This document shows positions 7,601 to 35,900 of a stretch of DNA of 64,000 nt, piece after piece. Positions within the stretch are counted from its first letter, which is position 1. Every line of letters starts with the position of its first letter. The notes beneath the pieces were generated by a model. The model was not told where the DNA came from. It was given only the letters and a program-made list of their open reading frames with translations, and ran no database searches. The DNA is taken from NCBI GenBank assembly GCA_951217055.1, contig OX578281.1, positions 27,762,101-27,826,100 on the forward strand, in the 5' to 3' direction. Source of the DNA: Gerris lacustris. Its lineage: Eukaryota; Arthropoda; Insecta; Hemiptera; Gerridae. A program made the translations under genes and the position numbers.

Positions 7601-10600
7601 TTCTAGTACTGCAACATGCACGGAGTCCAGCACATTATCTCTTGGTTCAGGGTCAAAGGAAAATTCCTGTAAGATGAGAAAGAGGAAATCAACTAGACGC
7701 GGACGCCGCTAGTTGATTTCTTCCTTCCCTACTTTTATTTTATCCTTTAGATTAATTACATAAATACCCCTCTATCTATCTATCTATCTCTATCTATCTT
7801 TATCTATCTATTATTTTTTTATATACTTTTTATATATTATCTTTATAAATAAATAAAATAATGAATAATCAAATGACAAAAATTTGCAGTTGGAACTGTA
7901 AAGGAGTTAGATCTAGAAGTACTGACATTAAACTACTACTAAAGGAAGAAAGCTTGCAAGTTTTACTAGCTCAAGAAACTCACTTACCTTCAATAACCTC
8001 AATAAGAATTCCTGGGTACAAAATATACCGACTTGATCCAACCAATGGGCGAAAAGGAGGACTTGCAACTATAGTGTCCAACAATTTACCCAGCCGACGA
8101 ATCCCGATTAACTCTAACCTACAAATTATGGCAATCAGAATTGGGGGGGACATATCCAATAACAGTAGGAAACATTTATCTAGAAAGTAACCAAAAATTA
8201 TATAGATCAGAAATAAAAGAAATTGTGAAACAACTACCAAAACCGTTTATCCTAGCAGGCGACTTTAACGCTCACAGCACACTGTGGGGTTCTTCAAAAC
8301 TAGATCGTAGAGGCACAATAATCGAGTCGATACTAGACGACCTTAATCTTTTCCTCTACAATGAGGACCAACCAACTTATATAGATGCTCGAACAGGAAA
8401 AAGTGACGCCATAGACTTAATGATAACTTCACGTGGCCTATCCCAAATTTCCAAATTCCAGGTATCACATTTATTTTCTGTATGGAAGTGACCATTTCCC
8501 ACTTTTCGTCACACTATTCCCTAATGGAACCTCCCCAAACAAATCACCCACCCGATGGTTGTTCAAAAATGCCGACTGGGACTTATTTCACAGTAGCCTA
8601 ATAAAAACACCTGAATTCCAGACTAAAACCCACGTGATGCAATCAGAAGAACTCCTACAATATATTGTGAATGCTGTGTTAGATGCTGCCCACAAGGCTA
8701 TCCCAAGAACTACCCAAAGAAATAAACGTTTGCCAGTACCCTGGTGGAACGAGGCGTGTAAAGTTGCCCTGAGAGAACGAAGAAGAGCTTTAAAGCGATT
8801 CAACGCGAATTCTACTCAAGAAAACTTAAGGTTATATAAAAAAGCTAGATCAAATTGCAGAGACGTATTCACAGAATCTAAAACAAAATCATTAGGCCAG
8901 TACAAATAAGCAAAAAAGGGGGGAAAAATTAAATACTAAACTTTCTTTACACCATCGTTTAGAAGGGGTTTAGGGAAGCATTTTCCATATTATCATATCG
9001 AGTGCCACCGCTTGCTTCCCCCACCACCCCCTATTGAAGACCCAAATTTGGCCTATTCACTGTAACGCCAATATCTCCGGAACAAAGAGTGATAACGATG
9101 TGCGGTGTTTTTTAAAGTCTTCTATACACTGTCCTCTTTAATTTGATACCCATATCAATTTGCTTTTCGTAGTCAAAGTGTACCAAAAGTTATAAAATAT
9201 GGTAAAAAATCGACATTTCTTTTTTCTACTCTGAACAATTTTGATAATAACTTTTTTCCACGGGGTCGGCTTAAATAAAACGTGTAGATTATTTTATTAC
9301 CTTTAATTCGATGTATAATATGTCATAGCAACTCTAATGCAAGAGGGGGAAAAAAGCGGAAATAGCGGATGCGTGTAGTATGGAAAGCTGCTAATAGTGT
9401 TGACTGTGAACTCTATTTAGTCCAGGAAAATAAGGAATAATAGGGTAAATGATTTATAAAGTATTGAAACTTTGCGAAAAAACTCTTAAGGGTGTAGTAG
9501 TAAGAAACAGTAAAGTTCCCACCTCTTGAGGGAGGGGGGGGGGGGAGTGGCCCCCTTCCTCCACCATAAAATCTAAAAATAATAATTTTTTAACCTTATC
9601 TCGCAAAACAGTTTATTTTTTTTAAGAGAAATGTTTTTGACAAAAATATTTTCCCACAATTCTGCATAAAAAAGGTCCTATGCATGTTTAAAGTGACACA
9701 AACCGAGATATTGTAGTTGGAAAAAGATAAAAAATTGTAAACCGCATTTCTGCGAACCAACATAAATATCTTAAAAACTACTCCTCCGATTTTAATGAAA
9801 TTTAAATCGTAGGTCACCATTAGGCAATTGATGGTCCCAAATAAGTTTCAACCTTATTTTCACCTATATCTTCAAAAGTACTAAAATTTTAAACTTTGCA
9901 CATCAACATTCTTTTAACTGTGATACTTTTGTGTGTAATTCAGTTTGTACATAAGTGCCTATATTAATTTGAATATTTTTCCGTTCATGTTATTGTTACT
10001 AACTTGTTTTTACTACGCCTACAGCAACTTCTAATTGCTGAAAATTTTATTATTTATCTCTCCGTCATTGTTGTTATCGATGTGTATGGTCCTACTTAAA
10101 CCACTTTTAAATTTTATTGTGACCTTTAACCGCATGTAGTACTAACTGTGAAGCAAGCTATAATTTGATAAAAAAAAAAAACCTGACACTGACCACACCA
10201 CAACCACAACTACAACCTCAACCACAACCGTAACCACAACCACAACCATCACCACAATCACAACCATCACCACAACCAAAACCACAACCATAACAAATAC
10301 CACAACCACAAAAAATACCACAACCACAACAAATACAAATACCACAACAAATACAAATACCACAACAAATACAAATACCACAACCACAAAAAATACCACA
10401 ACCTAAACTACAACAAATACCACAACAACAATTACCACACCACAACCACAACAAATACTACAACCATCAACACAACCACACCACAACCACAACCACAACA
10501 AATACCACAACAAATACAAATACCACAACCACAACAAATACCACAACCACAAAAAAATACCACAACCTAAACTACAACAAATACCACAACCACTCAACTA

Positions 10601-13600
10601 CAACAAATGGGGGAAAAATTAAATACTAAACTATCTTTACACCATCGTTTAGAAGGGGTTTAGGGAAGCATTTTCCATATTATCATATCGAGTGCCACCG
10701 CTTGCTTCCCCCACCACCCCCTATTGAAGACCCAAATTTGGCCTATTCACTGTAACGCCAATATCTCCGGAACAAAGAGTGATAACGATGTGCGGTGTTT
10801 TTTTAAAGTCTTCTATACACTGTCCTCTTTAATTTAATACCCATATCAATTTGCTTTTCGTAGTCAAAGTGTACCAAAAGATATAAAATATGGTAAAAAA
10901 TCGACATTTCTTTTTTCTACTCTGAACAATTTTGATAATAACTTTTTTCCACGGGGTCAAATACACAACAAATATTACAACCACAACCACAACCACTACA
11001 AATACCACAACCACAACCACAACCACAACCACAACCACAACAACCACAACCACAACAACAACCACAACCACAACCACAACAACAACAAATACCACAACAA
11101 ATACTACAACCACAACCACAACAAATACCACAACCACAACAAAACCACAACCACAACAAATACCACAACCACAACAAATACCACAACCACAACCACAACA
11201 AATACCACAACCACAACCACAACAAATACCACAACCACAACTACAACAAATACCACAACCACAACCACAACAAATACCACAACCACAACAAATACCACAA
11301 CAACAACAAATACCACAACCACAACAAATACCACAACCACAACCACAACAAATACCACAACCACAACAAACACCACACCACAACCACAACCACACCAAAT
11401 ACCACAACCACAACAAATACCACAACCACACCACAACCACAACCACAACCACAACAAATACCACAACAACAAATACCACAACCACAACCACAACAAATAC
11501 ACAACCACAACAAATACCACAACCACAACCACACCACAACCACTACCACAACCACAACAACAACCATAACCACAACCACAACAAATACCACCACCACAAC
11601 AAATACCACAACCACATCCACCACAAATACCACAACCACAACAAATACCACAACCAGAACAAATACCACAACCACAACCACAACCATAACCACAACAAAT
11701 ACCACAACCACAACCACAACAAATACCACAACCACAACCACAACAACAACAACAACCACACCACAACCACAACCACAACTACAACAACAACAACAACAAC
11801 AACCACAACCACAACCACAACCACCACAAATACCACAACCACAACCACAACAAATACCACAACCACAACAAATACCACAACCACAACCACAACAAATACC
11901 ACAACCACAACCACAAAAATACCACAACCACAACCACAACAAATACCACAACCACAACCACAAAAATACCACAACCACAACTACAACAAATACCACAACC
12001 ACAAAAATACAACATTACAACCACAACCATCACCACAACCAGAACCATCACCACAACCACAACCATCACACAACTATCACCACAACCACAACCATCACAC
12101 AACTATCACCACAACTACAAGCTACTACTCTAGCTATTGGCGAGCTGCTTAAGGGCTTCAAGTAGAGTCTTGAATTTCTCTCTACCAACTCGATTTTGAC
12201 AGCTTGTGAGCGTTTATTCCTCTTAAAAAAAAATTAAAAAATAATTTAAAAAATAATTAATAGAAAAAAAAGAAATAATACAAATAATGAAACACCACCC
12301 CCTATTGAAGACCCAAATTTGGCCTATTCACTGTAACGCCAATATCTCCGGAACAAAGAGTGATAACGATGTGCGGTGTTTTTTAAAGTTGTAACGGGGA
12401 AGCCAAGTCTAGAATATTCTAGGAAAGCAGTGTAGACCTTAGGCTAGCAAAGGCTCGAATTTCTGTCTAGTGGTGCTTTCCCCCACCAAGAATCTAACAG
12501 ACTAAGCCCTAGCATAGAGTCACACGGGGAGTCCGATCTTAGCTCTGGAGGTGTACACATCTTACAACAATCACTCACACACATTCATATACAAATAAAT
12601 ATATATATCAAACATTTATTATCTACTTTATTCCACTCACCAAATCCCCGTTACATTGGTGGCAGTGGAGGATTCACCCCCACACAATTTCACAATCAAA
12701 TAACAATTTCAAACATATAACAAATTTTATTATTATTCAATTATTATTATTATCTAAACTTACACCTCCAGAGACGCGAGTGAACATCAACAATTCAACA
12801 ATTCAATCACCATTCAACACCATTCTCATCATCATCATCATCAAAAATCACAAGCACAGTCGGATTCAAACATAAGGTAAGAACTTATCATAATTATTTA
12901 AATATATAATAATAATACATTTATTCACTTTTTTTTATCAACTAAAACACACAATATGTATGATTATTTAACAATTTATGCCTGTCAATACTGCCAGAAA
13001 TTATCCCACTTAGCCAGTAACTGCCCACACAATCCTCGAAACACTATTTGTCAATTATGCGACCAACAAGGGCATACGGCAGAAAAATGTAACAAATATA
13101 AAATAATATATTGCAAATTTTGTAACCAAGCTGGTCACGGAGTGTTCGAATGTAGCAAACTTAGACAAAGTTTAAAAACTTCAGAACCAGTTCAACCAAA
13201 ATCCATCACCACAACACCAATTCAAAACACTGAGTTAATGTTACATGGGCATGAGGCAAAACAGTGCAACAAACATGAAATTATATATTGCAAATTTTGT
13301 AATCAAGCTGGCCACGGAGTGTTTGACTGCAGCAAAATGCGGCAAATGTTGAAGACTCCAGAACAAAATAAACTAAATTCTACAACATTTACACAATTCC
13401 CACGTATGCAGAACAAAAACACCACATTAAATTGTCAACAAACAAAAATCACCGGGAACAAAGACAAAATCATTAATACTAAGACAAAACCGCAACAAGT
13501 CAACAGACAAATGACAAAAGTCCTTAATGATTCTAAGACAGAACAGAAGAAAGATTATCAAGTTTATACAACACAAACAACACAATTTTCCCCAACAGTA

Positions 13601-14919
13601 ATAACCAAACCATCAGTAAATTTAGCTGATAAACCGGCAATCATGAAGGCAAAGTTAAACAAAATTCCATTAGGGAGAGTCTTAGATAAAAGTTCAGCGA
13701 TATCAGTTACTCACCCCAGTTTGTTCACAAGGACTAAAGTCACCAACCCGGTAGATACCGCACTCATAGGTAAATCAGGTCAGATCATGATTGTGCAAGG
13801 ACAGACAAACACAAACATCATTTTAGGCCACAAGAGACAGTTTACCTATTCATTTTTAATCTCAGAGTTTGACAATATTAAATTTAGTCTTATCTTAGGA
13901 ATAGGCCGGTTTAACAAGTATAATGGCATAATTAACTTTCAGCTATCGGAAATGTCATTTAAATTTACAAACAATACATTTGTTGACCAAATAAAAAGTA
14001 GGTTAAAGAAACAGCTGATTGACCTCCTACATCGCAAACCATATGACATAGGAGATGGAGATAAACAAACAGCTGGTATAGTAGAATTGCATACGTTACT
14101 AGGGAACACAGGACAACAAACTAGTGGATCAGCAGATTCCTTTACACAGCTGGACTCACTCACTCAAACTAACATGCACGGAACCCAACACAAACTTATA
14201 TAGAACCACCAAATAGCCACACCCCCACAAATATACACGACATTTTTTTATTTATCATATCTGTATTTTTAATTCAACCAGGAACACTCAGTTTAAAAAA
14301 AAAAAAAAAAAAAACTTTAAGCGCTCATAATTATTATCTCAATACTAACACTATTCTTCTGTTTTAGATAAAAATTGCCTTATACAGAAGCACATGTGCA
14401 GACTGCAGATGAAGGGTCAAAGCACCTTTCAACAACTAATTAATATAAACATTATGCATTTTTTTCAGCTTCCATAAATTTTCCCACCAAACCATATTTT
14501 CCTGCCATATCCAATTCCCAACCAGACTTGCAATTTTGCAATAATACTTCACACGTACTTACTGGATCGTATTTCTTTTTAATTTTATGCCTATTGTATT
14601 TATTTTTCCTGCCTTACCCAGGCAAATGATCCATTTAATCACATAAGTGTAAAACGATCCTTCAAGACACTGAAGGCATACTGTATATCAAGTTCCTAGT
14701 CAGCATTTCCATTATCTCCCAGACGGAGTAGATCTATAACAAGATTGTGCAAACAGATTGTTTTTTAAACCGACTCAGATTAATCATAATTTATGTCAAT
14801 TCATAAGAAAAGCTTATAAAATTAATTTATCCATAATCATGTAATTTTTTTTATTTTAAAGTTAAAAGAACATATTATTTAAGATTTCATAATTGCTTCA
14901 CACACTCTGTCAAGTTTTA

Positions 14920-14953
<34 letters not shown>

Positions 14954-17900
14954 GTATAGATAATAACGTAGTCATTTAAATTGTAAGCCAAAGCTATTTA
15001 AGGAATGTGGAACGGACAGAAAAAAAAGATAAAGAAAGACTGAGCTCATCAAAATCACAATCAGCTGATCTTCAAAACAAAAGAAGGTAAACAAACGTAT
15101 CCCTCTCTCTTTCTTTTTATTCACCATAACATAAAACACGAAACTGTAACAACGTTGTGCTTTTATGGGCCAACAGCAGAACTTCTCCTTCCATCAAGTC
15201 CTTCCTTAAACTCCAATGGGAAGTATTATTTCATTTTTCATCCCCAGGGACAAAAATGAAGGGTGATCAGTCTCACCATGGATCATCACTACTGTATCAT
15301 CTCGCGAATGAGACATACAGTCGGGGTTTATCCCCTTACATGGATCATCACTACTGTATCATCTCGCGAATGAGACATACAGTCGGGGTTTAACCCCTCA
15401 CATGGAATTCAGGGAGTGCACAAACCTCCCTGATTCGACAACAACAATCTTCAACACCATTGACTGACCCCCAAAAATAGAAAACTCCCACTAATCTTAC
15501 CAATAACCTTATCCTTGAAAACCTACGTTCACTTTACCCTTAACCCATCGGAGAACCTCAATTCTGCTTGAATTGGTTTCACTAATGCACAGGCTAGACC
15601 AAACAGTTAAAATACCACACAACACGAAAATTTAAAAAGAAACGAGAGAGGGAGACGTGATATCAGCATGCTCAGTAATAGCCTTTCCACAATCCTCAGT
15701 AATAGCCTTTCCACAATCCTCAACCAAGCTAGATAAATAGTTAGTAGTATATTCAAATTAATAATTGAAGAATAAATTGAATTCGAATAATAAGAGGAAA
15801 TTATTTTATTATATAATAAACAAAGATATATAACCTAATAATAATCATTATAATTGTAAGAAATCATTAATTAAAATTTTAAATAACTAACTAAAATGTA
15901 ATACTACTGTGATATGTGTAAAAATATTGAAATCAAACACACAACTAAGTACACACTCCGACATATGTAAGTGAACGGAGAGAGACCCTAACACCCCACA
16001 TCTGACTCACTCAACAACGAACTGCCAGGACCATCCATCAACAATGGCCTGGTCACCAACTGCCAGGACCATCACTCACTCAACAATGGCCTGGTCACCA
16101 ACTGCCAGGACCATCACTCACTCAACAATGGCCTGGTCACCAACTGCCAGGACCATCACTCACTCAACAATGGCCTGGTCACCAACTGCCAGGACCATCC
16201 CACTCAACAATGGCCTGGTCACCAACTGCCAGGACCATCCCACTCAACAATGTCCTGGTCACCAACTACCAGGACCATCCCTCAACAACAACCTGGTCAC
16301 CAACTGCCACGGCCAATTCCCAATCACCACGCTACCATCACCCATCATCCCAGGACCACTCCAATTCATCGACACATAAGGTCTCTCCTCCATTCCGCGA
16401 CACACTAAATTAAGTATACACCATCAGCTCAAAGTCGCTGTCCAAATCAATATAAACACTTACACTGCCTTGGCTACTTCCTTCTTTTGGGAGTAACCTG
16501 TTCGCAGGAGCTCACTCTCCAAAGAAGGGGGTCTGTAACGGGGAAGCCAAGTCTAGAATATTCTAGGAAAGCAGTGTAGACCTTAGGCTAGCAAAGGCTC
16601 GAATTTCTGTCTAGTGGTGCTTTCCCCCACCAAGAATCTAACAGACTAAGCCCTAGCATAGAGTCACACGGGGAGTCCGATCTTAGCTCTGGAGGTGTAC
16701 ACATCTTACAACAATAACTCACACACATTCATATACAAATAAATATATATATCAAACATTTATTATCTACTTTATTCCACTCACCAAATCCCCGTTACAA
16801 AGTCTTCTATACACTGTCCTCTTTAATTTAATACCCATATCAATTTGCTTTTTGTAGTCAAAGTGTACCAAAAGTTATAAAATATGGTAAAAAATCGACA
16901 TTTCTTTTTTCTACTCTGAACAATTTTGATAATAACTTTTTTCCACGGGGCCAAATACACAACAAATATTACAACCACAACCACAACCACAACAAATACC
17001 ACAACCACAACCACAACCACAACCACAACCCCAACCACAACCACAACCACAACAACAACCACAATCACAACCACAACAAATACCGCAACCACAACCACAA
17101 CCAAAACAAATACCACAACCACAACAAATACCACAACCATTAGGTCCTTAAGGTCCTGTAGGTCCTTTTGGTCCTCTAGGTCCTATAGGTCCTTTAGGTC
17201 CTAGGACCTATAGGTATTGGGTAATAGGACCTATAGGTTTTAGGTCCTAAGACCTATGGGTCCTAGGTCGTAGGTCATATAGGTCCTAGGTCGTAGGTCC
17301 ACCACCACAACCACAACAAATACCACAACCACAACCACAACAAATACCACAACCACAACCACAACTACAACCACAACCACAACAAATACCACAACCACAA
17401 CCACAACCAGAACTCAACAAATACCACAACCACAACCACAACAAATACCACAACCACAACCACAACCACAACCACAACTATCACCACAACCATCACCACA
17501 ACCACAACCACCACCACAACCACAACAACAACCACAGCCAAAACCACAACCACAACCACAACAAATCCTCCATAGACTCTAAATACCACAACCACAACTA
17601 CAACAAATACCACAACCACAAAAATACAACATTACAACCACAACCATCACCACAACCACAACCATCACCACAACCACAACCATCACACAACTATCACCAC
17701 AACTACAAGCTACTACTCTAGCTATTGGCGAGCTGCTTAAGGGCTTCAAGTAGAGTCTTGGATCTCTCTCTACCAACTCGATTTTGACAGCTTGTGAGCG
17801 TTTATTCCTCATAAAAAAAAAATTAAAAAATAATTTAAAAAATAAATATAGAAAAAAAAGAAATAATACAAATAATGAAACACCACCCCCTATTGAAGAC

Positions 17901-20900
17901 CCAAATTTGGCCTATTCACTGTAACGCCAATATCTCCGGAACAAAGAGTGATAACGATGTGCGGTGTTTTTTAAAGTCTTCTATACACTGTCCTCTTTAA
18001 TGTAATACCCATATCAATTTGCTTTTCGTAGTCAAAGTGTACCAAAAGTTATAAAATATGGTAAAAAATCGACATTTCTTTTTTCTACTCTGAACAATTT
18101 TAATAATAACTTTTTTCCACGGGGTCAAATACACAACAAATATTACAACCACAACCACTACAAATACCACAACCACAACCACAACCACAACCACAACAAC
18201 AACCACAACAACCACAACCACAACAACAACCACAACCACAACCACAACAACAACAAATACCACAACAAAAACTACAACAAATACTACAACCACAACCACA
18301 ACAAATACCACAACCACAACCACAGCCACAACCACAACAAATACCACAACCACAACCACAACAACAACAAATACCACAACAAATACAAATACCACAACCA
18401 CAACAACAACCACAACCACAACCACTACCACAACAAATACCACAACCACAAAATACAAATACCACAACCACACCACAACCGCAACCACAACCACACCACA
18501 ACCGCAACCACAACCACAACCACAACAAATACCACAACCACAACCAAAACAAATAACACAACCTCAACCACAACCACAACAAATACCACAACCACAACCA
18601 CAACAAATACTACAACCACAACAAATACCACACCACAACCACAACCACACCAAATACCACAACCACAACAAATACCACAACCACAACCACACCACAACCA
18701 CAACCACAATCACAACCACAACAAATACCACAACAACAAATACCACAACCACAACAAATACCACAACAACAAATACCACAACCACAACAAATACCACAAC
18801 CACAACAAATACCACAACCACAACAAATACCACAACCACAACAACAACCATAACCACAACCACAACCACAACCACAACAAATACCACAACCACAACAAAT
18901 ACCACAACCACAACAAATACCACAACCACAACAAATACCACAACCACAACAAATACAAATACCACAACCACACCACCACCGCAACCACAACCACAACAAA
19001 TACCACAACCACAACCACAACAAATACCACAACCACAACAAATACCACAACCACAACAAATACCACAACCACACCACAACCACAACCACAACAACAACCA
19101 TAACCACAACCACAACCACAACCACAACAAATACCACAACCACAACAAATACCACAACCACAACAAATACCACAACCACAACAAATACAAATACCACAAC
19201 AAATACAAATACCACAACAAATACAAATACCACAACCACACCACCACCGCAACCACAACCACAACCACAACAAATACCACAACCACAACAAATACCACAA
19301 CCACAACCACAACAAATACCACAACAAATACCACAACCACACCACAACCACAACCACAACAACAACCATAACCACAACCACAACCACAACCACAACAAAT
19401 ACCACAACCACAACAAATACCACAACCACAACAAATACCACAACCACAACAAATACCACAACCACAACAACAACCATAACCACAACCACAACCACAACCA
19501 CAACAAATACCACAACCACAACAAATACCACAACCACAACAAATACCACAACCACAACAAATACCACAACCACAACAAATACAAATACCACAACCACACC
19601 ACCATCGCAACCACAACCACAACAAATACCACAACCACAACAAATACCACAACCACAACCACAACAAATACCACAACCACAACAAATACCACAACCACAA
19701 CAAATACCACAACCACACCACAACCACAACCACAACAACAACCATAACCACAACCACAACCACAACCACAACAAATACCACAACCACAACAAATACCACA
19801 ACCACAACAAATACCACAACCACAACAAATACAAATACCACAACAAATACAAATACCACAACAAATACAAATACCACAACCACACCACCACCGCAACCAC
19901 AACCACAACCACAACAAATACCACAACCACAACAAATACCACAACCACAACCACAACAAATACCACAACAAATACCACAACCACACCACAACCACAACCA
20001 CAACAACAACCATAACCACAACCACAACCACAACCACAACAAATACCACAACCACAACAAATACCACCACCACAACAAATACCACAACCACAACAAATAC
20101 AAATACCACAACAAATACAAATACCACAACCACACCACCACCGCAACCACAACCACAACCACAACAAATACCACAACCACAACAAATACCACAACCACAA
20201 CCACAACAAATACCACAACCACAACCACAACAAATACCACAACCACAACCACAACAAATACCACAACAACAACCACAACAACAACCACAACAACAACAAC
20301 AACCACAACAACAACAACAACTACAACCACAACAACAACCACAACCACACCACACCAACAACCACAACTACAACAACAACAACAACCACAACCACCACAA
20401 ATACCACAACCACAACCACAACAAATACCACAACCATAACAAATATCACAACCACAACCACAACAAATACCACAACCACAACCACAAAAATACCACAACC
20501 ACAATTACAACAAATACCACAACCACAAAAATACAACATTACAACCACAACCATCACCACAACCACAACCATCACCACAACCACAACCATCACACAACTA
20601 TCACCACAACCACAACCATCACACAACTATCACCACAACTACAGGCTACTATTCTAGCTATTGGCGAGCTGCTTAAGGGCTTCAAGTAGAGTCTTGAATC
20701 TCTCTCTACCAACTCGATTTTGACAGCTTGTGAGCGTTTATTCCTCATAAAAAAAAAAATTAAAAAATAATTTAAAAAATAATTAATAGAAAAAAAAGAA
20801 ATAATACAAATAATGAAACACCACCCGCTATTGAAGACCCAAATTTGGCCTATTCACTGTAACGCCAATATCTCCGGAACAAAGAGTGATAACGATGTGC

Positions 20901-23900
20901 GGTGTTTTTTAAAGTCTTCTATACACTGTCCTCTTTAATTTAATTCCCATATCAATTTGCTTTTCGTAGTCAAAGTGTACCAAAAGTTATAAAATATGGT
21001 AAAAAATCGACATTTCTTTTTTCTACTCTGAACAATTTTGATAATAACTTTTTTCCACGGGGTCAAATACACAACAAATATTACAACCACAACCACAACC
21101 ACTACAAATACCACAACCACAACCACAACAACAACCACAACCACAACAACCACAACCACAACAACAACCACAACCACAACCACAACAACAACAAATACCA
21201 CAACAAATACTACAACCACAACCACAACAAATACCACAACAAATACCACAACAAATACTACAACCACAACCACAACAAATACCACAACCACAACCAAAAC
21301 AACAACCACAACAAATACCACAACCACAACCACATCAACAACCACAACCACAACCACTACTACAACAAATACCACAACCACAACAAATACAAATACCACA
21401 ACCACACCACAACCGCAACCACAACCACAACCACAACAAATACCACAACCACAACCACAACAAATACCACAACCACAACAAATACCACAACCACAACAAA
21501 TACCACAACCACAACCACAACAAATACCACAACCACAACCACAACAAATACTACAACCACAACAAATACCACACCACAACCACAACCACACCAAATACCA
21601 CAACCACAACAAATACCACAACCACAACCACACCACAACCACAACCACAACCACAATCACAACCACAACAAATACCACAACAACAAATACCACAACAACA
21701 AATACCACAACCACAACAAATACTACAACCACAACAAATACCACAACCACAACAAATACCACAATCACAACCACAACAACAACCATAACCACAACCACAA
21801 CCACAACAAATACCACAACCACAACAAATACCACAACCACAACAAATACCACAACCACAACAAATACAAATACCACAACAAATACAAATACCACAACCAC
21901 ACCACCACCGCAACCACAACCACAACCAAAACAAATACCACAACCACAACAAATACCACAACCACAACCACAACAACAACCACAACAACAACAACAACCA
22001 CAACCACACCACAACCACAACTACAACAACAACAACCACAACCACCACAAATACCACAACCACAACCACAACAAATACCACAACCAGAACAAATATCACA
22101 ACTACAACCACAACAAATACCACAGCCACAACCACAAAAATACCACAACCACAAACAACAAATACCACAACCACAAAAATACAACATTACAACCACAACC
22201 ATCACCACAACCACAACCATCACCACAACCATCACACAACTATCACCACAACCACAACCATCACACAACTATCACCACAACTACAAGCTACTACTCTAGC
22301 TATTGGCGAGCTGCTTAAGGGCTTCAAGTAGAGTCTTGAATCTCTCTCTACCAACTCGATTTTGACAGCTTGTGAGCGTTTATTCCTCATAAAAAAAAAA
22401 TTAAAAAATAATTTAAAAAATAATTAATAGAAAAAAAAGAAATAATACAAATAATGAAACACTACCCCCTATTGAAGACCCAAATTTGGCCTATTCACTG
22501 TAACGCCAATATCTCCGGAACAAAGAGTAATAACGATGTGCGGTGTTTTTTAAAGTCTTCTATACACTGTCCTCTTTAATTTAATACCCATAAAGTGGTC
22601 CAATTTAAAACAATTACGAAAAATAGAAAAATGTAGAAGAATAGAATAAAGATTTTACGATATTAACGAGCGGGAGGGCTAATTAAATAAAACTGACAAC
22701 AAATTAAAAATGTAGTATGTAAAAAAGATTTTAATAAGCTTTGATTTAATCTTATCTTTAGATGATTATCTAAGGTAGATAAGAAGTCCAGGTGTCCCCT
22801 AGTGTTTTTAGACATAGTGTTTTTATCACTTTCTACCTACTGTTCTATTACCTTCTCACTTATTTCTCAACTTTTACTTTGTCACTTATTTCCATATCTG
22901 CATTTTCATCCCTCTTATCTCCCTTACTACACACCCCTCCGATTTATTTTTTTTATTTAAAACTCAAAAACACAGAATGATTTTGCGGTTCCGTTTACAG
23001 TTCATACTAATATTTCTGCTGCAATTATTTCTTACTGCTTCCCGTTATTTTAATTTAATATAATATTATAATAAATATAATATTATTTTTATTTATTTCA
23101 CTTTTTTTAAATTTTTAGTTTAAGCTACTTGCAAAAGATTGCTAAACAAAAAATGTATAAGGAATCTGCCGGATTCGCCGGCGCCTCGTCCTAGGCTGCG
23201 CCACATGCGGCCGCATGTCTCGCATGGCCCTTGCGCCGGCCCTGTCAGTATCAGTATCCGTATCAATGTCAGTATCCCGTATCAGTATCTCGTATCAGTA
23301 TCCAGTATCCGTATCAGTATCCGTATCAGCACCCGCAGTATCCCTATCAGTATCCTGTTGTATCCGTATCAGTATCCCGTATCAGTTTCCCGTATTAGTA
23401 TCCGTATCAGTTTCCCGTATTAGTATCCGGATCAGTATCCCGTAGTATCAGTATCAGTATCCGTATCAGTATGTCGTATCAGTATCAGTATCCGTATTAG
23501 TACCAGTATCCGTATCAGTATCCCATATCAGTATCCGTATTAATATCCCGTAGTACCTGTATCACTATCAGTATACGTATCAGTATCCATTATCAGTATA
23601 CCTTATCACGTATCCGTATCAGAATCCGTATCAGTATCCGTATCAGTATCCGTATCAGTATCCGTATCAGTATCCGTATCAGTATTCATATGTATCCGTA
23701 TCAGTATCCCGTATCAGTATCTGTATGTCTCCCGTGGTATCCATCAGTATCTCAGTAGGGTATCAGTATCCCGTAGTATCCATCTGAATCTGAATCTGAA
23801 TCTGAATCTAAATCTGAAACCGAATAAGAATGGGAATCGGAATCTGAATCGGACTAGGAATCGGAATCGGAATTGGAATCTGAATAGGAATCGGAATCTT

Positions 23901-26900
23901 ATTCTGAATAGGAATCAGAATCAGAATCGAAATCTGAATCTGAATCTGAATCAGAGATAACGACGACGACGACGACGACATGATGACGAAGCCTGCCGAC
24001 GACATGATGACGACACGATGATGACGATTACATGATGACGTTATGATGACATGATGACGACACGATGCCGCCGTGATGACGACACGATGATGACACGATA
24101 ATGACGATAACGACACGACGAGGACATTATGACGACATGACGACGACATTATGACGACATGACGCCGACATTATGACGACATGACGCCGACATTATGACA
24201 ACATGACGCCGACATTATGACGACATGACTATATGAACGACGACATAATTACAACATTATGACGACATGTCGACACTATGACGACACTATGCTGACACTA
24301 TGACGACACTATGACGACACTATGACGACACTATGACGACACTATGACGACACTATGACGACACTATGACGACACTATGACGACACTATGACGACACTAT
24401 GACGACACTATGACGACACTATGACGACACTATGACGACACTATAACGACACTATGACGACACTATGACGACACTATGACGACACACAACCACAACCACA
24501 ACCACAACCACAACCACAAGCACAACTACAACCACAACCACAACCACAACAAATACCATCACCACAACCACAACCATCACTACAACCACAACCACAACCA
24601 CAACCTTCACCACAACCACAACAAATACAATAACCACAACCACAACCACAACCACACCCACCACCACAATCATTCCACAACCACAACCACAACCACAACC
24701 ACTACCATCACCACAACCACAACAAATACAATAACCGCAACCACAAGAAATACCACAACCACAACTATCACCACAACCATCACCACAACCACAACCACCA
24801 CCTCAACCACAACAACAACCACAGCCAAAACCACAACCACAACCACAACAAATACTACAACCATAACCACAAAATACTAAAACCACCATCCTAGGACCTA
24901 GGACCTATAGGTCTTGGGTAATATAGGACCTTAGACCACAACCATCACCAAAACCACAACCAAAACCATCACCACAACCACAACCATCACCACAACCACA
25001 ACAACAACCACAACAACAACCACAGACCTAGGACCTAGGGTCTAGGGCCTTGGACCTAGGACCTTCGACCTAGGACCTAAGACCTAGGACCTAGGACCTA
25101 TAGGTCTAAGGACCTATATTACCTAGGACCTATAGGACCTATAGGACCTAGGATTTATAGGACCTAGGACCTATAGGACCAAGGATTTATAGGACCTAGG
25201 TCCTATAAAACCTAGGATTTATAGGACCTAGGATTTATAGGACCTAGGTCCTATAGGTCTAAGTTCCTATATTACCTAGGACCTATAGGACCTACGACAT
25301 AGGACCTATATGACCTAGGACCTAGGACCCATGGGTCTTAGGTCCTAGGACCTACAGGACCTTAAGGACCTAATGGTTCACAAACCACAACCACAACCAC
25401 AACAAATACCACAACCACAACCACAACCACAACCACAACCACAACCACAACCACAACCACAACCACAACCACAACCACAACCACAACCACAATCACAATC
25501 ACAACCACAACCACAACCACAACCACAACCACAACCACACCACAACCACAACCACAACCACAACCACAACCACAACCACAACCACAACCACAACCACAAC
25601 CACAACCACAACCACAACCACAACCACAACCACAACCACAACCACAACCACAACCACAACCACAACCACAACCACAACCACTAACACAACCACAACCACA
25701 ACCACAACCACAACCACAACCACAACCACAACCACAACCACAACCACAACCACAACCACAACCACAACCACAACCACAACCACAACCACAAACACAACCA
25801 CAACCACAACCACAACCACAACCACAACCACAACTACAACCACAACCACAACCACAACCACAAACACAACCACAACCACAACCACAACAAATACCACAAC
25901 CACAACCAATAGGTCCTTAAGGTCCTGTAGGTCCTTTTGGTCCTCTAGGTCCTATAGGTCCTTTAGCCCTACACCTACCCCTACACCTACACCTCACCTT
26001 CACATATACCTACTTCTACTCCTACACCTACTCCTACACCTACCCTTACACACCCACCTACCCCTACACCTACACTCATAAACGAGTTCATAACACATAG
26101 CCCAGCATATTTTTTTGTATTTACTAGTTTTTGTAGGTAAATATTATTATTATTGAAGTATCCGTATCAGTATCCCTATCAGTATCCGACGACATGACTA
26201 TATGAACGACGACATAATGACAACATGATGACGACATGACGACATGACGACATTATTACGTCATTATGACGACACTATGACGACACGATGAAGACACCAT
26301 GATGACGATGACGACACGACTAGGACATTATGACGACATGACGACGACATTATGACGACATTAGGACGACATTATGACGACATTATGCCGACATTATGAC
26401 GACACTATGACGACATTATGACGACATGACTATATGAACGACGACATAATGAAAACATGATGACGACATGACGACATGATGAAAACACGACATTATGACG
26501 ACACTATGACGACATTATGACGACACTATAACGACATTATGACGACACTATGACGACACTATAAAGACACGATGATGACAACACGACGAGGACATTATGA
26601 CGACATTATGCCGATATTATGACGACACTATGACGACATTATGACGACATGACTATATGAACGACGACAATGAAAACATGATGACGACATGACGACATGA
26701 CTATATGAACGACGACATGATGAAAACACGACATTATGACGACACTATGACGACATTATGACGACACTATGACGGCACTATAAGGACACGATGATGACAA
26801 CACGACGAGGACATTATGACGACATGACGCCGAAATTATGACATAATTACAACATTATGACGACATGTCGACACTATGACGACACTATGACGACACTATG

Positions 26901-29900
26901 ACGACACTATGCCGACACTATGCCGACACTATGACGACACTATGACGACACTATGACGACACTATGACGACACTATGACGACACTATGACGACACTATGA
27001 CGACACTATGACGACACTATGACGACACTATGACGACACTATGACGACACTATGACGACACTACGACGACATTATAACGGCATTATAACGACATTATGAC
27101 GACATTATGACATTATCACATTATCATAGTGTCGTTATAGTGTCGTCATAGTGTCGTCATAGTGTCGTCATAGTGTCGTCATAGTGTCGTCATAGTGTCG
27201 TCATAGTGTCGTCATAGTGTCGTCATAGTGTCGTCATAGTGTCGTCATAGTGTCGTCATAGTGTCGTCATAGTGTCGTCATAGTGTCGTCATAGTGTCGG
27301 CATAGTGTCGGGCCGACACTATGCCGACACTGTCGGCATAGTGTCGTCATAGTGTCGTCATAGTGTCGACATGTCGTCATAATGTTGTAATTATGTCATA
27401 ATTTCGGCGTCATGTCGTCATAATGTCCTCGTCGTGTTGTCATCATCGTGTCCTTATAGTGCCGTCATAGTGTCGTCATAATGTCGTCATAGTGTCGTCA
27501 TAATGTCGTGTTTTCATCATGTCGTCGTTCATATAGTCATGTCGTCATGTCGTCATCATGTTTTCATTGTCGTCGTTCATATAGTCATGTCGTCATAATG
27601 TCGTCATAGTGTCGTCATAATATCGGCATAATGTCGTCATAATGTCCTCGTCGTGTTGTCATCATCGTGTCTTTATAGTGTCGTCATAGTGTCGTCATAA
27701 TGTCGTTATAGTGTCGTCATAATGTCGTCATAGTGTCGTCATAATGTCGTGTTTTCATCATGTCGTCATGTCGTCATCATGTTTTCATTATGTCGTCGTT
27801 CATATAGTCATGTCGTCATAATGTCGTCATAGTGTCGTCATAATGTCGGCATAATGTCGTCATAATGTCGTCCTAATGTCGTCATAATGTCGTCGTCATG
27901 TCGTCATAATGTCCTAGTCGTGTCGTCATCGTCATCATGGTGTCTTCATCGTGTCGTCATAGTGTCGTCATAATGACGTAATAATGTCGTCATGTCGTCA
28001 TGTCGTCATCATGTTGTCATTATGTCGTCGTTCATATAGTCATGTCGTCGGATACTGATAGGGATACTGATACGGATACTTCAATAATAATAATATTTAC
28101 CTACAAAAACTAGTAAATACAAAAAAATATGCTGGGCTATGTGTTATGAACTCGTTTATGAGTGTAGGTGTAGGGGTAGGTGGGTGTGTAAGGGTAGGTG
28201 TAGGAGTAGGTGTAGGAGTAGAAGTAGGTATATGTGAAGGTGAGGTGTAGGTGTAGGGGTAGGTGTAGGGCTAAAGGACCTATAGGACCTAGAGGACCAA
28301 AAGGACCTACAGGACCTTAAGGACCTATTGGTTGTGGTTGTGGTATTTGTTGTGGTTGTGGTTGTGGTTGTGTTTGTGGTTGTGTTTGTGGTTGTGGTTG
28401 TGGTTGTGGTTGTAGTTGTGGTTGTGGTTGTGGTTGTGGTTGTGGTTGTGGTTGTGGTTGTGGTTGTGGTTGTGGTTGTGGTTGTGGTTGTGGTTGTGGT
28501 TGTGGTTGTGGTTGTGGTTGTGGTTGTGGTTGTGGTTGTGGTTGTGGTTGTGGTTGTGGTTGTGGTTGTGGTTGTGGTTGTGGTTGTGGTTGTGGTTGTG
28601 GTTGTGGTGTGGTTGTGGTTGTGGTTGTGATTGTGGTTGTGGTTGTGGTTGTGGTTGTGGTTGTGGTTGTGGTTGTGGTTGTGGTTGTGGTTGTGGTTGT
28701 GGTTGTGGTTGTGGTTGTGGTTGTGGTTGTGGTTGTGGTTGTGGTATTTGTTGTGGTTGTGGTTGTGGTTTGTGAACCATTAGGTCCTTAAGGTCCTGTA
28801 GGTCCTAGGACCTAAGACCCATGGGTCCTAGGTCCTAGGTCATATAGGTCCTATGTCGTAGGTCCTATAGGTCCTAGGTAATATAGGAACTTAGACCTAT
28901 AGGACCTAGGTCCTATAAATCCTAGGTCCTATAAATCCTAGGTTTTATAGGACCTAGGTCCTATAAATCCTTGGTCCTATAGGTCCTAGGTCCTATAAAT
29001 CCTAGGTCCTATAGGTCCTATAGGTCCTAGGTAATATAGGTCCTTAGACCTATAGGTCCTAGGTCCTAGGTCTTAGGTCCTAGGTCGAAGGTCCTAGGTC
29101 CAAGGCCCTAGACCCTAGGTCCTAGGTCTGTGGTTGTTGTTGTGGTTGTTGTTGTGGTTGTGGTGATGGTTGTGGTTGTGGTGATGGTTTTGGTTGTGGT
29201 TTTGGTGATGGTTGTGGTCTAAGGTCCTATATTACCCAAGACCTATAGGTCCTAGGTCCTAGGATGGTGGTTTTAGTATTTTGTGGTTATGGTTGTAGTA
29301 TTTGTTGTGGTTGTGGTTGTGGTTTTGGCTGTGGTTGTTGTTGTGGTTGAGGTGGTGGTTGTGGTTGTGGTGATGGTTGTGGTGATAGTTGTGGTTGTGG
29401 TATTTCTTGTGGTTGCGGTTATTGTATTTGTTGTGGTTGTGGTGATGGTAGTGGTTGTGGTTGTGGTTGTGGTTGTGGAATGATTGTGGTGGTGGGTGTG
29501 GTTGTGGTTGTGGTTGTGGTTATTGTATTTGTTGTGGTTGTGGTGAAGGTTGTGGTTGTGGTTGTGGTTGTAGTGATGGTTGTGGTTGTGGTGATGGTAT
29601 TTGTTGTGGTTGTGGTTGTGGTTGTGGTTGTGGTTGTGGTTGTGGTTGTGGTTGTGGTTGTGGTTGTGGTTGTGGTTGTGGTTGTGGTTGTGGTTGTGGT
29701 TGTGGTTGTGGTTGTGGTTGTGGTTGTGGTTGTGGTTGTGGTTGTGGTTGTGGTTGTGGTTGTGGTTGTGGTTGTGGTTGTGGTTGTGGTGTGGTTGTGG
29801 TATTTGTTGTGGTTGTGGTTGTGGTTCACAACCACAACCATTAGGTCCTTAAGGTCCTGTAGGTCCTAGGACCTAAGACCCATGGGTCCTAGGTCATATA

Positions 29901-32900
29901 GGTCCTAGGTCGTAGGTCCTATAGGTCCTAGGTAATATAGGAACTTAGACCTATAGGACCTAGGTCCTATAAATCCTAGGTCCTATAAATCCTTGGTCCT
30001 ATAGGTCCTAGGTCCTATAAATCCTAGGTCCTATAGGTCCTATAGGTCCTAGGTAATATAGGTCCTTAGACCTATAGGTCCTAGGTCCTAGGTCTTAGGT
30101 CCTAGGTCGAAGGTCCTAGGTCCAAGGCCCTAGACCCTAGGTCCAAGGCCCTAGACCCTAGGTCCTAGGTCTGTGGTTGTTGTTGTGGTTGTGGTGATGG
30201 TTGTGGTTTTGGTGATGGTTGTGGTCTAAGGTCCTATATTACCCAAGACCTATAGGTCCTAGGTCCTAGGATGGTGGTTTTAGTATTTTGTGGTTATGGT
30301 TGTAGTATTTGTTGTGGTTGTGGTTGTGGTTTTGGCTGTGGTTGTTGTTGTGGTTGTGGTGGTATCAAATTAAAGAGGACAGTGTATAGAAGACTTTAAA
30401 AAACACCGCACATTGTTATCACTCTTTGTTCCGGAGATATTGGCGTTACAGTGAATAGGCCAAATTTGGGTCTAAAATTGGGGGTGGTGGGGGAAGCAAG
30501 CGGTGGCACTCGATATGATAATATGGAAAATGCTTCCCTAAACACCTTCTAAACGATGGTGTAAAGAAAGTTTAGTATTTACTTTTTCCCCCCTTTAGGC
30601 CCTTTTCTGTCTATTTGTACTGAGCTATAATTATCAGCCTCAAAACAATATAGGCTTTTTAGAAAAAAATTACTAAACAAGTCTAACCAGCGGCGCCGGC
30701 GTTAATAAGAATTTTCTCCGAGCAAAATTTGCGGGATTAATATAACCGATGAAATTTAAGGGAATATTTTTTAGGAATTAGTAGAAATCAAAATGCCAAA
30801 CTGTAATCCCGGATAACAATGCGTATGTTCTTGTTAAATTGTTATTTATATCCCTTGTTATGTTACTTAACAGTATGTTATCTATTTAATTAATATGTTT
30901 TTGGTCTTTGGTGTGGGTATTTACTTAGAAAAACATAAAAATTACCAACCCGCATTTTTGCGAACCATCATATCTTAAAAACTACACTTCCGATTTTAAT
31001 GAAATTTAAATGGTAGGTCACATTAGGCAAATTTTGGTCCCAAATAAGTTTCAAGCTTCTGCGCCTATTATTTTTATCTTCCACATGCACACATACATTT
31101 ATTTAACAGCAATTTCTCGAAAACGGTTTGTCTCACTTTAAACATGCATAGGACCTTTTTTGTGCAGAATTATGGAAAAAATATTTTTGATAAAACATTT
31201 CTCTTAAAAAAAATTAACTGTTTTGCGAGAAAAGTTAAAAAAATGTAAATTTTAGACTTTAAGGAGGAGGGAGGGGGACCCCCCCCCCTCCCTAAGTGTG
31301 GGGAACTTTTTTTTTTTTTTTTTGTTTCTTACTACTACACCCTTAAGAGTGTTTTCACAAAGTTTCAATACTTTATAAATTATTTTCCCTATTATTCCTT
31401 ATTTTAACTCCTAATTTTTTAACTTAGAAGGGAACAAGGAGCAAGGTTAAAATAGATGGTTGTTTATCGCCCTCCTTTGAGGTTAGAAGAGGGCTGAGGC
31501 AGGGAGATGTTCTGTCAGCAACTCTTTTTAACCTTGTGCTGGAAAGAGCTGTCAGGAAAATACCTGGCAACCCAGGAGGAGCCTTGTTTAACCGGCAAAC
31601 CCAATGTCTTGCGTATGCAGATGACGTTGGACTCTTGGCAAGATCTAAAAGAGCCTTGGAGGAGGCTTACATGCCATTGAAGCAAGAAGCTGCTGATCTG
31701 GGACTAAATATTAACAAAAATAAAACAGAATATATGCTAATGACTCGCAGAGAAGGAAGAGAACCTCTGGAAGATGTGTTGTTAGGAGGTGATTTATTTA
31801 AGTCAACTAACAACTTCAAATATTTAGGAACCCAAATCACTAATGACAACACCGTATCGGAGGAAGTAAGAGCTAGACTAACGGCAGGAAATAGGTGCTA
31901 CTTCTCCTTGATGAGGATACTAAAAAGTAGACTCTTAAGTCGAGACTTGAAGATCAAAGTTTATCTAACTGTCATCCGGCCTGTTGTATTATATGGATCA
32001 GAGGCCTGGACTCTTACCAACTCTGATGAAAGCTGCTTACGGCGTTGGGAGAGAAAACTATTGAGAAGAATCTTTGGCCCAGTGAACGAGGATGGAAGAT
32101 GGAGACTTAGGCACAATGATGAGCTACATATTCTCTACGGCAAACCGGACCTGGTGGCTGAGATTAAGAAAAATAGGCTGCGATGGCTAGGTCACGTTGA
32201 GAGAATGCCAGAGAATAAGGCGGCTAAAAAGTTGTATGATGGTAAACCTGGCGGAAAAAGACTTAGAGGGCGTCCAAGACTGAGATGGCTAGATCAGGTG
32301 GAGAACGATCTGAGGAGGATAGGAGTGAGGAGGTGGAGGGCTGTTGCACAACAGCGGGAACTCTGGAGGAGCGAAGTGTTGCAGGCCCAGGCTCTTCGAG
32401 AGCTGTAGTGATGATGATGATGATGATTATTCCTTATTTTCCTGGACTAAATAGAGTTCACAGTTGACTCTATTAGCAGCTTTTCTTACTACACGCATCT
32501 GCTATTTCCGCTTTTTTACCCCTCCTGCATTAGAGTTGCTATGACATATTATACATCGAATTATAGGTAATAAAATAAGCTACACGTTTTATTTCACCAC
32601 ATTTTTAGTGCCGACCCCGTGGAAAAAAGTTATTATCAAAATTGTTCAGAGTAGAAAAAAGAAATGTCGATTTTTTACCATATTTTATTAATTTTTGGTA
32701 CATTTTTACTGCAAAAAGCATATTGATATGGGTATCAAATTAAAGAGGAAAGTGTATAGAAGACTTTAAAAAACACCCCACGTCGTTATCACTCTTTGTT
32801 CCGGAGATATTGGCGTTACAGTGAATAGGCCAAATTTGGGTCATCAATAGGGGGTGGTGGGGGAAGCAAGTGGTGGCACTCGATATGATAATATGGAAAA

Positions 32901-35900
32901 TGCTTCTCTAAACACCTTCTAAACGATGGCGTAAAGAAAGTTTAGTATTTAATTTTTCCCCCCTTTAGGCCCTTTTTATGTCTATTTGTACTGGGCTACA
33001 TGGAGAAATTACATTTCATCAATCAATCAAAACACACCAGTTTCGGAAATTTGGAAAAAAGTAAAATCTATATCAGGAAAACCAAATTCTGACACCATCC
33101 CATCACTGAAAATTGCTAACAAAGAAATTACAAATCCCCAAGACGTAGCAGAAACGTTAGCAAATCACTTTGCTGAGGTAAGCTCCAATAAGTCATACCC
33201 TCAAGAATTTCAAACAAAAAAGTCGGTCGCAGAAAGCCACAGTGTATTTGATGAAAGCGAAACAGATGAGGAGCAATACAATACAAATTTCACCATTTGG
33301 GAACTAGAATCAGCAATAAAATCATTAAATTTAACAGCACCTGGCCCTGATCAAATTCACAACATCATGATTAAAAACCTGCCTCTTAAATTCAAAGGGT
33401 ATCTCCTAAAACTCTACAATATTCTTTGGACTGAGCGTAAATACCCTGAAGACTGGAGGGACTCAATCCTCATTGCAGTTCCCAAGCCAGGGAAGAATCC
33501 GACAGACCCAACATCTTACAGGCCTATAGCTCTTTCTAATACGTTAGGGAAACTTTTAGAAAAAATGGTAAATTCGAGACTAGTTTGGGAACTAGAGTCT
33601 AGAAATTTGCTGTCAAAATACCAAAGTGGGTTTAGGAAAAACAGATCTACAATGGACAATCTGGTTCGAATAGCTACTTATATTCAAGATGGTTTTGTAC
33701 AAGACAAAGAAACAATAGGGATATTTTTCGATTGCGAAAAAGCGTATGATAAGACCTGGAGACACTTAATATTGCAACAACTAAAGAAATATGGATTTAA
33801 AGGACATTTACCTATATTTATCAAGAACTTCCTAGCTGAGCGAAGATTCAAAGTAAAAGTAGGAAACACCCTTTCGCAACCAAAAGTACAAGAAAATGGA
33901 GTCCCGCAAGGAGCAGTTTTAAGTGTAACCCTATTTATTCTGGCTGTCAATGAGGTAGAAGAAGTTATACCAGCAGGTGTAGAAAAATGCTTCTTTGTAG
34001 ATGACATGACGATTTTACTAAGGTCAAAAGATAGAAGACATGCCACCGCTGTTTTACAGACGTGTATAGAAAGAATGGACAATTGGGCTAAAAGAAATGG
34101 TCTCAGCTTCTCAACCTCAAAAACACAGTGCATGCTATTCAGTCGCAAAAGAAATAGTAGGAAAAGACCTCAACCAACACAAATTAGACTTTTCTTAAGT
34201 GGACATCCAATACCCTTAGTGACTACAGTGCCCTACCTCGGACTTATATTAGATCAAAAGCTAACTTGGAAAAACCATATAGAGCATATCAGAGCTAGAT
34301 GTAATAAAAACTTGAATTTACTGCGAATGTTACGTGGACTTAGGTGGGGAGCAGACAGGCAATCACTTCTCTACATTTACCACCAGGTAGTTAGAAGCAA
34401 ACTGGACTATGGTTGTGCCATTTACGGCTCAGCGAAACAAAGGGTTTTACAAAGGTTAGAGCCAATCCAAAACTCTAGCATACGACTGGCAACTGGAGCG
34501 TTTAAAACAAGCCCCGTAGAAAGCCTTCAAGTAGAAGCCAATACTCCGCATTGGATACAGGCTCCTTCAATTCCCAAACAATTTGACAAGAAAGAATTTT
34601 AAATCTCCAAACTACCTGGAACTTTATGAAACAAAGCCAAGCCTACCACAACCACCTGGAGTGCGTTTTAAAAAACTAGTATCTGTGTACCAAATTGACC
34701 AGACACAGCAGATTACACAGTTTAACTTGCCAAATATACCACCATATATTCTGCAAAAACCGTGCGTACACTATCTGTGCAAATCACATTCTAAGTCAGA
34801 GACCCAACTGGAGAAGTACTTACAAGAATTCAGGCGCCACAAATCAAAACATCAGGAGGAAAAACATTTTTATACAGATGGATCCAAAAACTCAATAGGA
34901 ACAGGCTGTGCGTTTGTAGTCAATGATACCTTTAAGCAATTCAAATGTAACAAGCTGAGCTCAATATGTGCAGTGGAGTTAGAGGCAATTTATGAATCAA
35001 TTAAACACGCAGTCAGGGAGAGAATGGACAGAATTGTGATATACTCAGACTCAAAAAGTGCATTACAAAGTCTAGAAAACCTTCAGTGTCATAACCCCGT
35101 GGTATCAAAGATTCTCACTTACATACACCTAACTAATCTCAAGGTAAAGTTCTGCTGGATACCTAGTCACATAGGTATTCCAGGAAATTCCAAAGCAGAC
35201 CATCTAGCTCAAGCCGCAGTTACAGTGGGAGAACCACTAGAAACTACAGTTACGGCCAAAGATCTTAATGGAAATATTAGAACAGCCTTACAAAGACACT
35301 GGCAAAACCAATGGACAAATAGTTTAAATGATAAGTTAAAATATGTAAAACCGCTAGTATCAGATTGGCAAACAAGTTACAGAAAGGTTAGACACGAAGA
35401 AATTGTACTTGCAAGACTAAGGATTGGACACACTAGACTGACTCACGGATATTTAATAACAAAACAAGACAGACCCATATGTACCCTCTGTGGCCAGAGA
35501 CTGACTGTATTCCACATTTTATGTGAATGTCAACAATTAGAACCTCTACGAAATCAAAATTCACTCCCCCAAAATATGCCTGACATTTTAAAAGACGACG
35601 AGACGAACATACAAAAGCTACTCCAATATCTACATCAAGCTGTGCTTATGGAAGAAATATATTTTTTTTCAGATTTTTACCCATTACAATACAAATTATA
35701 ATTAATCACCCTACTACACGCACATCTATAACAACACACACAAAAACTACTTAATACTAGTAAATTCATCCATTCATTAATACCAATATCCATTTATTTT
35801 TATGTATTTATATTTATTTGCTCTCTATTCATTTTTATAAATATTTCTAAATATTCTCGGAGGAAAATAACCTCAGCAGTTAAACCTCCAAAAAACAAAA

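Follow-up and report, generated by a model that had tools for sequence, protein, structure and literature searches.

The window analysed here is a stretch of 64,000 nucleotides of the Gerris lacustris genome (assembly GCA_951217055.1, contig OX578281.1, positions 27,762,101 to 27,826,100), in which an element of 24,106 bp, hereafter W, interrupts the second open reading frame (ORF2) of a long interspersed nuclear element (LINE). Very probably, W is a giant DNA transposon with the build of a foldback element, non-autonomous and mobilised in trans. Copies with the same tips make up a family to which W belongs, and nested insertions shared by copies at unrelated sites show that a unit of about 24-27 kb transposed as a giant.

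Boundaries and target site

The element, its inverted repeats and the interrupted LINE are laid out as follows (window positions).

8893..32998, + strand: whole element, 24,106 bp
8890..8892, no strand: left target-site duplication, CAT
32999..33001, no strand: right target-site duplication, CAT
8893..9705, + strand: left terminal inverted repeat, starting TAGGCCAGTACAAATAAGCA
31124..32998, - strand: right terminal inverted repeat, split by a LINE fragment
8075..8892, + strand: left piece of the host LINE ORF2, endonuclease part, two overlapping frames
33002..35701, + strand: right piece of the host LINE ORF2, reverse transcriptase (RT) and RNase H, two frames

The first-pass annotation of this DNA had proposed a 24.1-kb element at 8893-32998 with matching tips and CAT on both sides, and these boundaries are confirmed to the base, with TAGGCCAGTACAAATA and TAGCCCAGTACAAATA as the inverted tips. 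Its claim that the split LINE is restored at K-S-W-R is borne out as well: once W is removed and the flanks are joined, the ORF2 frame is kept through these residues, and the joined peptide is gap-free within 10 residues of the joint in 38 of the 39 protein alignments that cross it. Alignments were counted when they extended 30 residues or more to either side of the joint, and they come from the best 120 of 635 LINE protein homologues retrieved with the right piece only; they provide an empty-site check at the protein level. The sources named among these best 120 comprise spiders, a scorpion and sea slugs, at 40-46% identity, together with two Bacteroidota-named entries and one 'invertebrate metagenome'.

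The two arms of W match at 89.5% (positions 23-813 of the left against 33-840 of the right). This amounts to about 0.82 kb with the nested LINE fragment set aside, in agreement with the 0.83-kb inverted repeat claimed earlier. Counted in the window only, the tip does not stand out significantly from chance, with 5 matches at up to three mismatches against 2.9 expected.

Transposition as a giant unit

Two mobile elements of other kinds are nested inside W.

12390..16799, + strand: nested long terminal repeat (LTR) element, 4,410 bp, with 266-bp LTRs TGTAACGGGG..CCCCGTTACA and a 4-bp duplication, AAGT
12902..14203, + strand: 433-amino-acid frame of the nested LTR element
31406..32425, + strand: nested 3' fragment of a LINE with RT domain, 1,020 bp
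31391-31405 and 32426-32440: 15-bp duplication ATTATTCCTTATTTT flanking the LINE fragment

Besides W, two giants on other chromosomes were read whole, A (26,824 bp, on C5) and B (25,870 bp, on C3), and a further copy, C (on C4), whose ends lie 40.5 kb apart, was read over 29.9 kb, without its right end. The LINE fragment is found with identical junctions and the same 15-bp duplication in W, A and B, that is in all three complete giants, and the 4.4-kb LTR element is common to W, A and C, again with identical junctions and its 4-bp duplication; it is absent from B. At E 1e-10, no match links the 1.5-kb flanks of any two of W, A and B, and the three copies are bordered by different 3-bp duplications (CAT, ACG and ATA, respectively). 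Since the same nested junctions occur at unrelated sites with different duplications, the nested pieces entered once and were then carried along as the whole unit moved.

This spread was recent, as the giants differ by few substitutions. Aligned along the LTR element, W and A show 13 substitutions, together with 44 gap positions; in the right 2.6 kb, the counts of substitutions are 7 for W-A, 24 for W-B and 22 for A-B; and the left 1 kb shows 8-11 differences between the pairs compared.

A family defined by its termini

We searched the host genome (a 937-Mb assembly in 69 contigs) with the terminus pattern TAGNNCAGTACAAATARRCA and obtained 346 places, 171 forward and 175 reverse, while the reversed control gave 0 and 0, so the tips are not due to chance and the copies form a family with 346 termini. 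The first-pass annotation had proposed looking for paired termini and shorter copies in the genome; both left-right pairs and shorter copies were found. When the first 100 of the 346 places were linked within 70 kb, they fell into 47 clusters. Fourteen of these are simple left-right pairs of 652 bp to 17.0 kb and 15 have a doubled right end as in the giants, with spans of 13.1-60.6 kb; besides the single ends considered below, there were four others.

Of 4024 first-look candidates for matches to the left 1 kb of W, 40 were scored: W itself matches at 100% and the other 39 at 96-98%. The alignment starts exactly at the first base of the element in 21 of the 40 and within three bases of it in 34; the others begin up to 12 bases before (four, including that of W itself) or up to five after it (two). 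As for the short pairs of 3.4-4.1 kb, their arms match over about 1.0-1.5 kb and span the site of the LINE fragment without carrying the fragment (5/5).

Both ends were read in 12 left-right pairs (W, A, B and nine on C1), and every one of these has a matching 3-bp duplication; judging from base composition, the chance of a match is about 2% per pair. The duplicated sequences are TTA (2), CAT (2), ACG, ATA, TTT, CTA, CAA, AAA, TGA and TTG. The duplicated target sequence thus has no fixed letters.

Clusters with a doubled right end are unevenly distributed, with 0/18 on C1 and 15/29 on C2-C4 (Fisher p 0.0002) in a chromosome comparison that uses the first 100 terminus places and covers C4 to about 34.3 Mb. 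None of the 40 left-end matches scored out of 4024 candidates lies on C1, and giant-type left ends are often located in a mid-chromosome band. Because both lists are selected, this C1-poor distribution of the giants is a lead only.

Some of the smaller copies have neighbouring or internal frames of their own. The 3,556-bp short copy L052/L053 (C1:100.54 Mb, duplication TGA) has LINE-like frames on both sides. The inner parts of the short copies L030, L040 and L052 share one frame, which we take to resemble the C-terminal cysteine motif of LINE ORF2; in L030 and L040 this frame has no Pfam match. The single right end L057 (C1:147.25 Mb) is flanked on either side by frames that presumably resemble an ion-channel gene, including one on the side expected to hold the element; L057 may be a very short copy located within a gene.

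Internal organisation

Apart from the nested elements, the interior of W is dominated by satellite arrays and by partial copies of its own ends.

10192-10593, 16958-17139, 17299-17708, 24485-24872, 25383-25908: ACCACA-type satellite arrays
10601..10958, + strand: internal direct copy of left-end positions 19-375, 98%
10977..12120, + strand: ACCACA-type satellite array
18145..22286, + strand: largest ACCACA satellite block, with higher-order units including copies of left-end positions 130-375
23245..24485, + strand: satellite arrays of GTATCC, ATCTGA and GACGACACTAT type
24485..29668, no strand: central 5.2-kb palindrome of satellite arrays, 95.4% identical to its own reverse complement and almost spacerless
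30361..30627, - strand: inner copy of the right end, with tip TAGCTCAGTACAAATA at 30612-30627, oriented as the outer right end

The satellites are of ACCACA, GTATCC, GACGACATTAT and TAGGTCC types. Two segments of the left inverted repeat, positions 19-375 and 130-375, are found again in the interior of W at the heads of satellite blocks. A palindrome of 5.2-kb size was not seen in giants A and B, which do contain the inner copy of the right end. We considered this inner right end as the working end of a nested element and rejected the idea, as W holds no matching inner left end.

Coding content

Once low-complexity frames are removed, the frames of at least 70 amino acids in W, A, B and the portion of C that was read are the 433-amino-acid frame of the LTR element, the LINE fragment, frames derived from repeats, and short frames. 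A Pfam scan of 12 of these frames placed only RVT_1 of the LINE fragment above the cut-off, and none of the ten frames scanned out of 17 distinct ones from short elements and single ends reached it. The earlier description of a giant transposon without transposase therefore holds for the sequence read. The wording 'no visible coding capacity' was correct in that no transposase was found there and went too far in that the nested LTR element and LINE fragment both carry frames.

The 433-amino-acid frame is weakly similar to nucleocapsid zinc knuckles (E 0.007) and to a retroviral-like protease (E 0.0078), and none of the 2114 candidates in a protein search with it reached E<=0.001. No RT frame was seen in the nested LTR element. 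Phage records had no match to window positions 12400-17000, mostly LTR element, and IMG/VR contigs had 0 matches to the single 27-base inner pattern used there.

Foldback build and proposed mechanism

The first-pass annotation held that the transposon fits no family that can be named. W is indeed one transposon with exact ends, but its build is recognisable as foldback. It has long inverted repeats (0.82 kb in W, about 1.0-1.5 kb in the five short pairs). Its internal tandem repeats, which make up 57.2% of W as detected by Tandem Repeats Finder against 2.6% of the flanks, derive in part from the inverted repeat, whose left-end pieces lie among them. Finally, the typical copy is without transposase, as judged, partly by eye, from the frames of W, A, B and the 29.9 kb read of C.

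A transposase supplied from another place in the genome would bind the TAG...CTA ends, cut the element out and paste it with a 3-bp stagger. The interior may have grown through amplification of satellites and duplication of inverted-repeat pieces, with the enlarged forms remaining mobile; at a guess, the repeated sub-terminal pieces could act as extra binding sites. It would be unusual for a unit of 24-27 kb that is filled with satellite and lacks its own genes to transpose naturally. One may go further and speculate that the TAG...CTA ends and the letter-free 3-bp duplication mark an undescribed transposase lineage, which moves gene-less satellite-filled units as long as about 60 kb, so that cut-and-paste would spread satellite arrays over the chromosomes; we consider this extended proposal unlikely, if conceivable. 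Among the matches listed in the literature searches, at the level of titles and abstract openings, we found no description of this family, and those listed for the terminus strings were unrelated papers.

Alternative explanations

Several observations weigh against W being a giant transposon mobilised in trans. Single ends make up 14 of the 47 clusters. Complete sequence was read for only three giants, and the larger spans are end-to-end distances whose interiors are mostly unread. The giant interiors align piecemeal, at 78-99% and with large gaps, from which it follows that the satellite interior changes fast. The junctions of W, A and B are known from assembled sequence. No transposase or autonomous relative was found in the copies read, by frames and partly by eye, and short, broken or spliced transposase pieces could escape frame scans. 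Lastly, four left-left pairs have no direct 3-bp match, and the flanks are mirrored in all four.

C4:23.98 Mb (L009-L010): left-left pair, mirrored arms of about 5.1 kb at 97.2%
C8:32.53 Mb (L011-L012): left-left pair, mirrored arms of about 3.9 kb at 99.4%
C1:78.80 Mb (L036/L037): left-left pair, flanks mirrored over 321 bases with at most 3 mismatches
C1:95.21 Mb (L044/L045): left-left pair, flanks mirrored over 182 bases with at most 3 mismatches

We take these four loci to be either inverted duplications from repair or assembly errors, not insertions. At C4:34.25-34.30 Mb (L024-L028), three left ends with the same flank lie in tandem, 15.4 and 20.2 kb apart, which is either a segmental duplication or an assembly repeat.

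Such loci give some substance to the view that W itself reflects an assembly artefact or segmental duplication instead of transposition: the tandem left ends at C4:34.25 Mb and the mirrored ends with mirrored flanks at the four loci are what it can appeal to. However, the flanks of W, A and B are unrelated, their exact duplications differ, and joining the flanks of W gives back the coding frame of the LINE; we find this account highly improbable. The first-pass annotation had left the choice between a non-autonomous giant and a small element that grew after insertion. Growth in place, whereby a small foldback element entered the LINE and then expanded by satellites and nested insertions, is in keeping with the existence of short forms with the same ends and with the variable interior length among copies. 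Yet the LINE-fragment junctions of W, A and B and the LTR junctions of W, A and C are shared across unrelated sites, so the large form predates its move; the non-autonomous giant stands, and the contrary option is contradicted, barring assembly copies of those junctions, and hardly credible. Further length change after insertion is likely, as a secondary process.

It may also be asked whether two short elements flanking satellite DNA were mobilised together by their outer ends. The extra inner right end of the giants and the internal left-end copy of W could be seen as traces of such a composite, but the inner copies are partial and oriented as the outer ends, and with its three tips W has no complete short element at either side, which makes composite movement very unlikely. 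As for a self-sufficient family, in which other members encode the transposase and W, A, B and C are dependent derivatives, we consider it possible but doubtful. Room for it exists in the C1 pairs of 8.9, 14.4 and 17.0 kb and the many pairs elsewhere with unread interiors; nothing positive was seen, however, and 1.5 kb at each end of those C1 pairs had no transposase-like frame by eye. This alternative bears on the source of the transposase, not on the nature of W.

Comparison with known systems

Foldback pairs of Drosophila can mobilise very large segments. Among foldback elements, Tetris of D. virilis resembles the W family in several respects, as far as described in the consulted part of PMC4079207: long inverted repeats, internal tandem repeats that derive partly from them, a variable middle, no coding frame, no autonomous copy found and a link to satellite DNA. 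Tetris is placed with Mutator there and has 8-10-bp duplications and three structurally complete copies, whereas the W family has 3-bp duplications, 346 termini and a 24-27-kb form moving whole. A Mutator-like foldback was rejected because it needs an 8-10-bp duplication and 3 bp were found in 12/12 left-right pairs.

Other assignments were rejected on similar grounds. The hAT elements make 8-bp duplications, not the 3 bp seen here. PIF/Harbinger elements have 3-bp duplications of TWA type, and TTA accounts for 2 of the 12 duplications only, with other letters in the rest. CACTA/EnSpm elements have CACTA-like termini, unlike the family termini TAGNNCAGTACAAATA. Polinton/Maverick elements, with a 6-bp duplication against the 3 bp of the W family, carry genes for DNA polymerase, integrase and capsid, and none of these was among the frames of the copies read. 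Rolling-circle elements, or Helitrons, lack target-site duplications and inverted termini, both of which the W family has. Large retroelements, Helitrons, Polintons and Teratorn carry genes.

The latter four are the giants named in the consulted part of a review (PMC6431247); for a red alga, the review further mentions En/Spm families of 16-20 kb that have 4-5 ORFs. The W family is likewise tens of kb in size and mobile; the interior of W is mostly satellite. Zator elements make 3-bp duplications, according to the part of PMC10045372 consulted; this likeness is not Zator-specific, and membership rests on the transposase. In the portions consulted, neither the paper on a weevil genome rich in transposable elements (PMC8576890) nor PMC11071193 settles the superfamily. 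Non-autonomous Helentrons of oysters with satellite-like arrays likewise disperse tandem repeats, as described in part of PMC7492417.

The efficacy of cut-and-paste transposons is said to fall once the cargo exceeds about 6 kb (PMC6431247, in part). Here, forms of 24-27 kb that consist mostly of satellite have moved in recent times with ends exact to the base, and the distance within end pairs reaches 60.6 kb. With shared tips in a single genome, the family provides a natural size series, from 0.65 to 60 kb between ends, that makes it testable what limits the size of DNA transposons and whether satellite arrays are seeded by transposons. The spread can be dated by the nested LTR and LINE pieces, which serve as time stamps.

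Neighbouring frames

Two further frames lie near W in the window.

5499-6185, - strand: integrase-core frame
36081-36782, - strand: GIY-YIG frame, which we take to be Penelope-like

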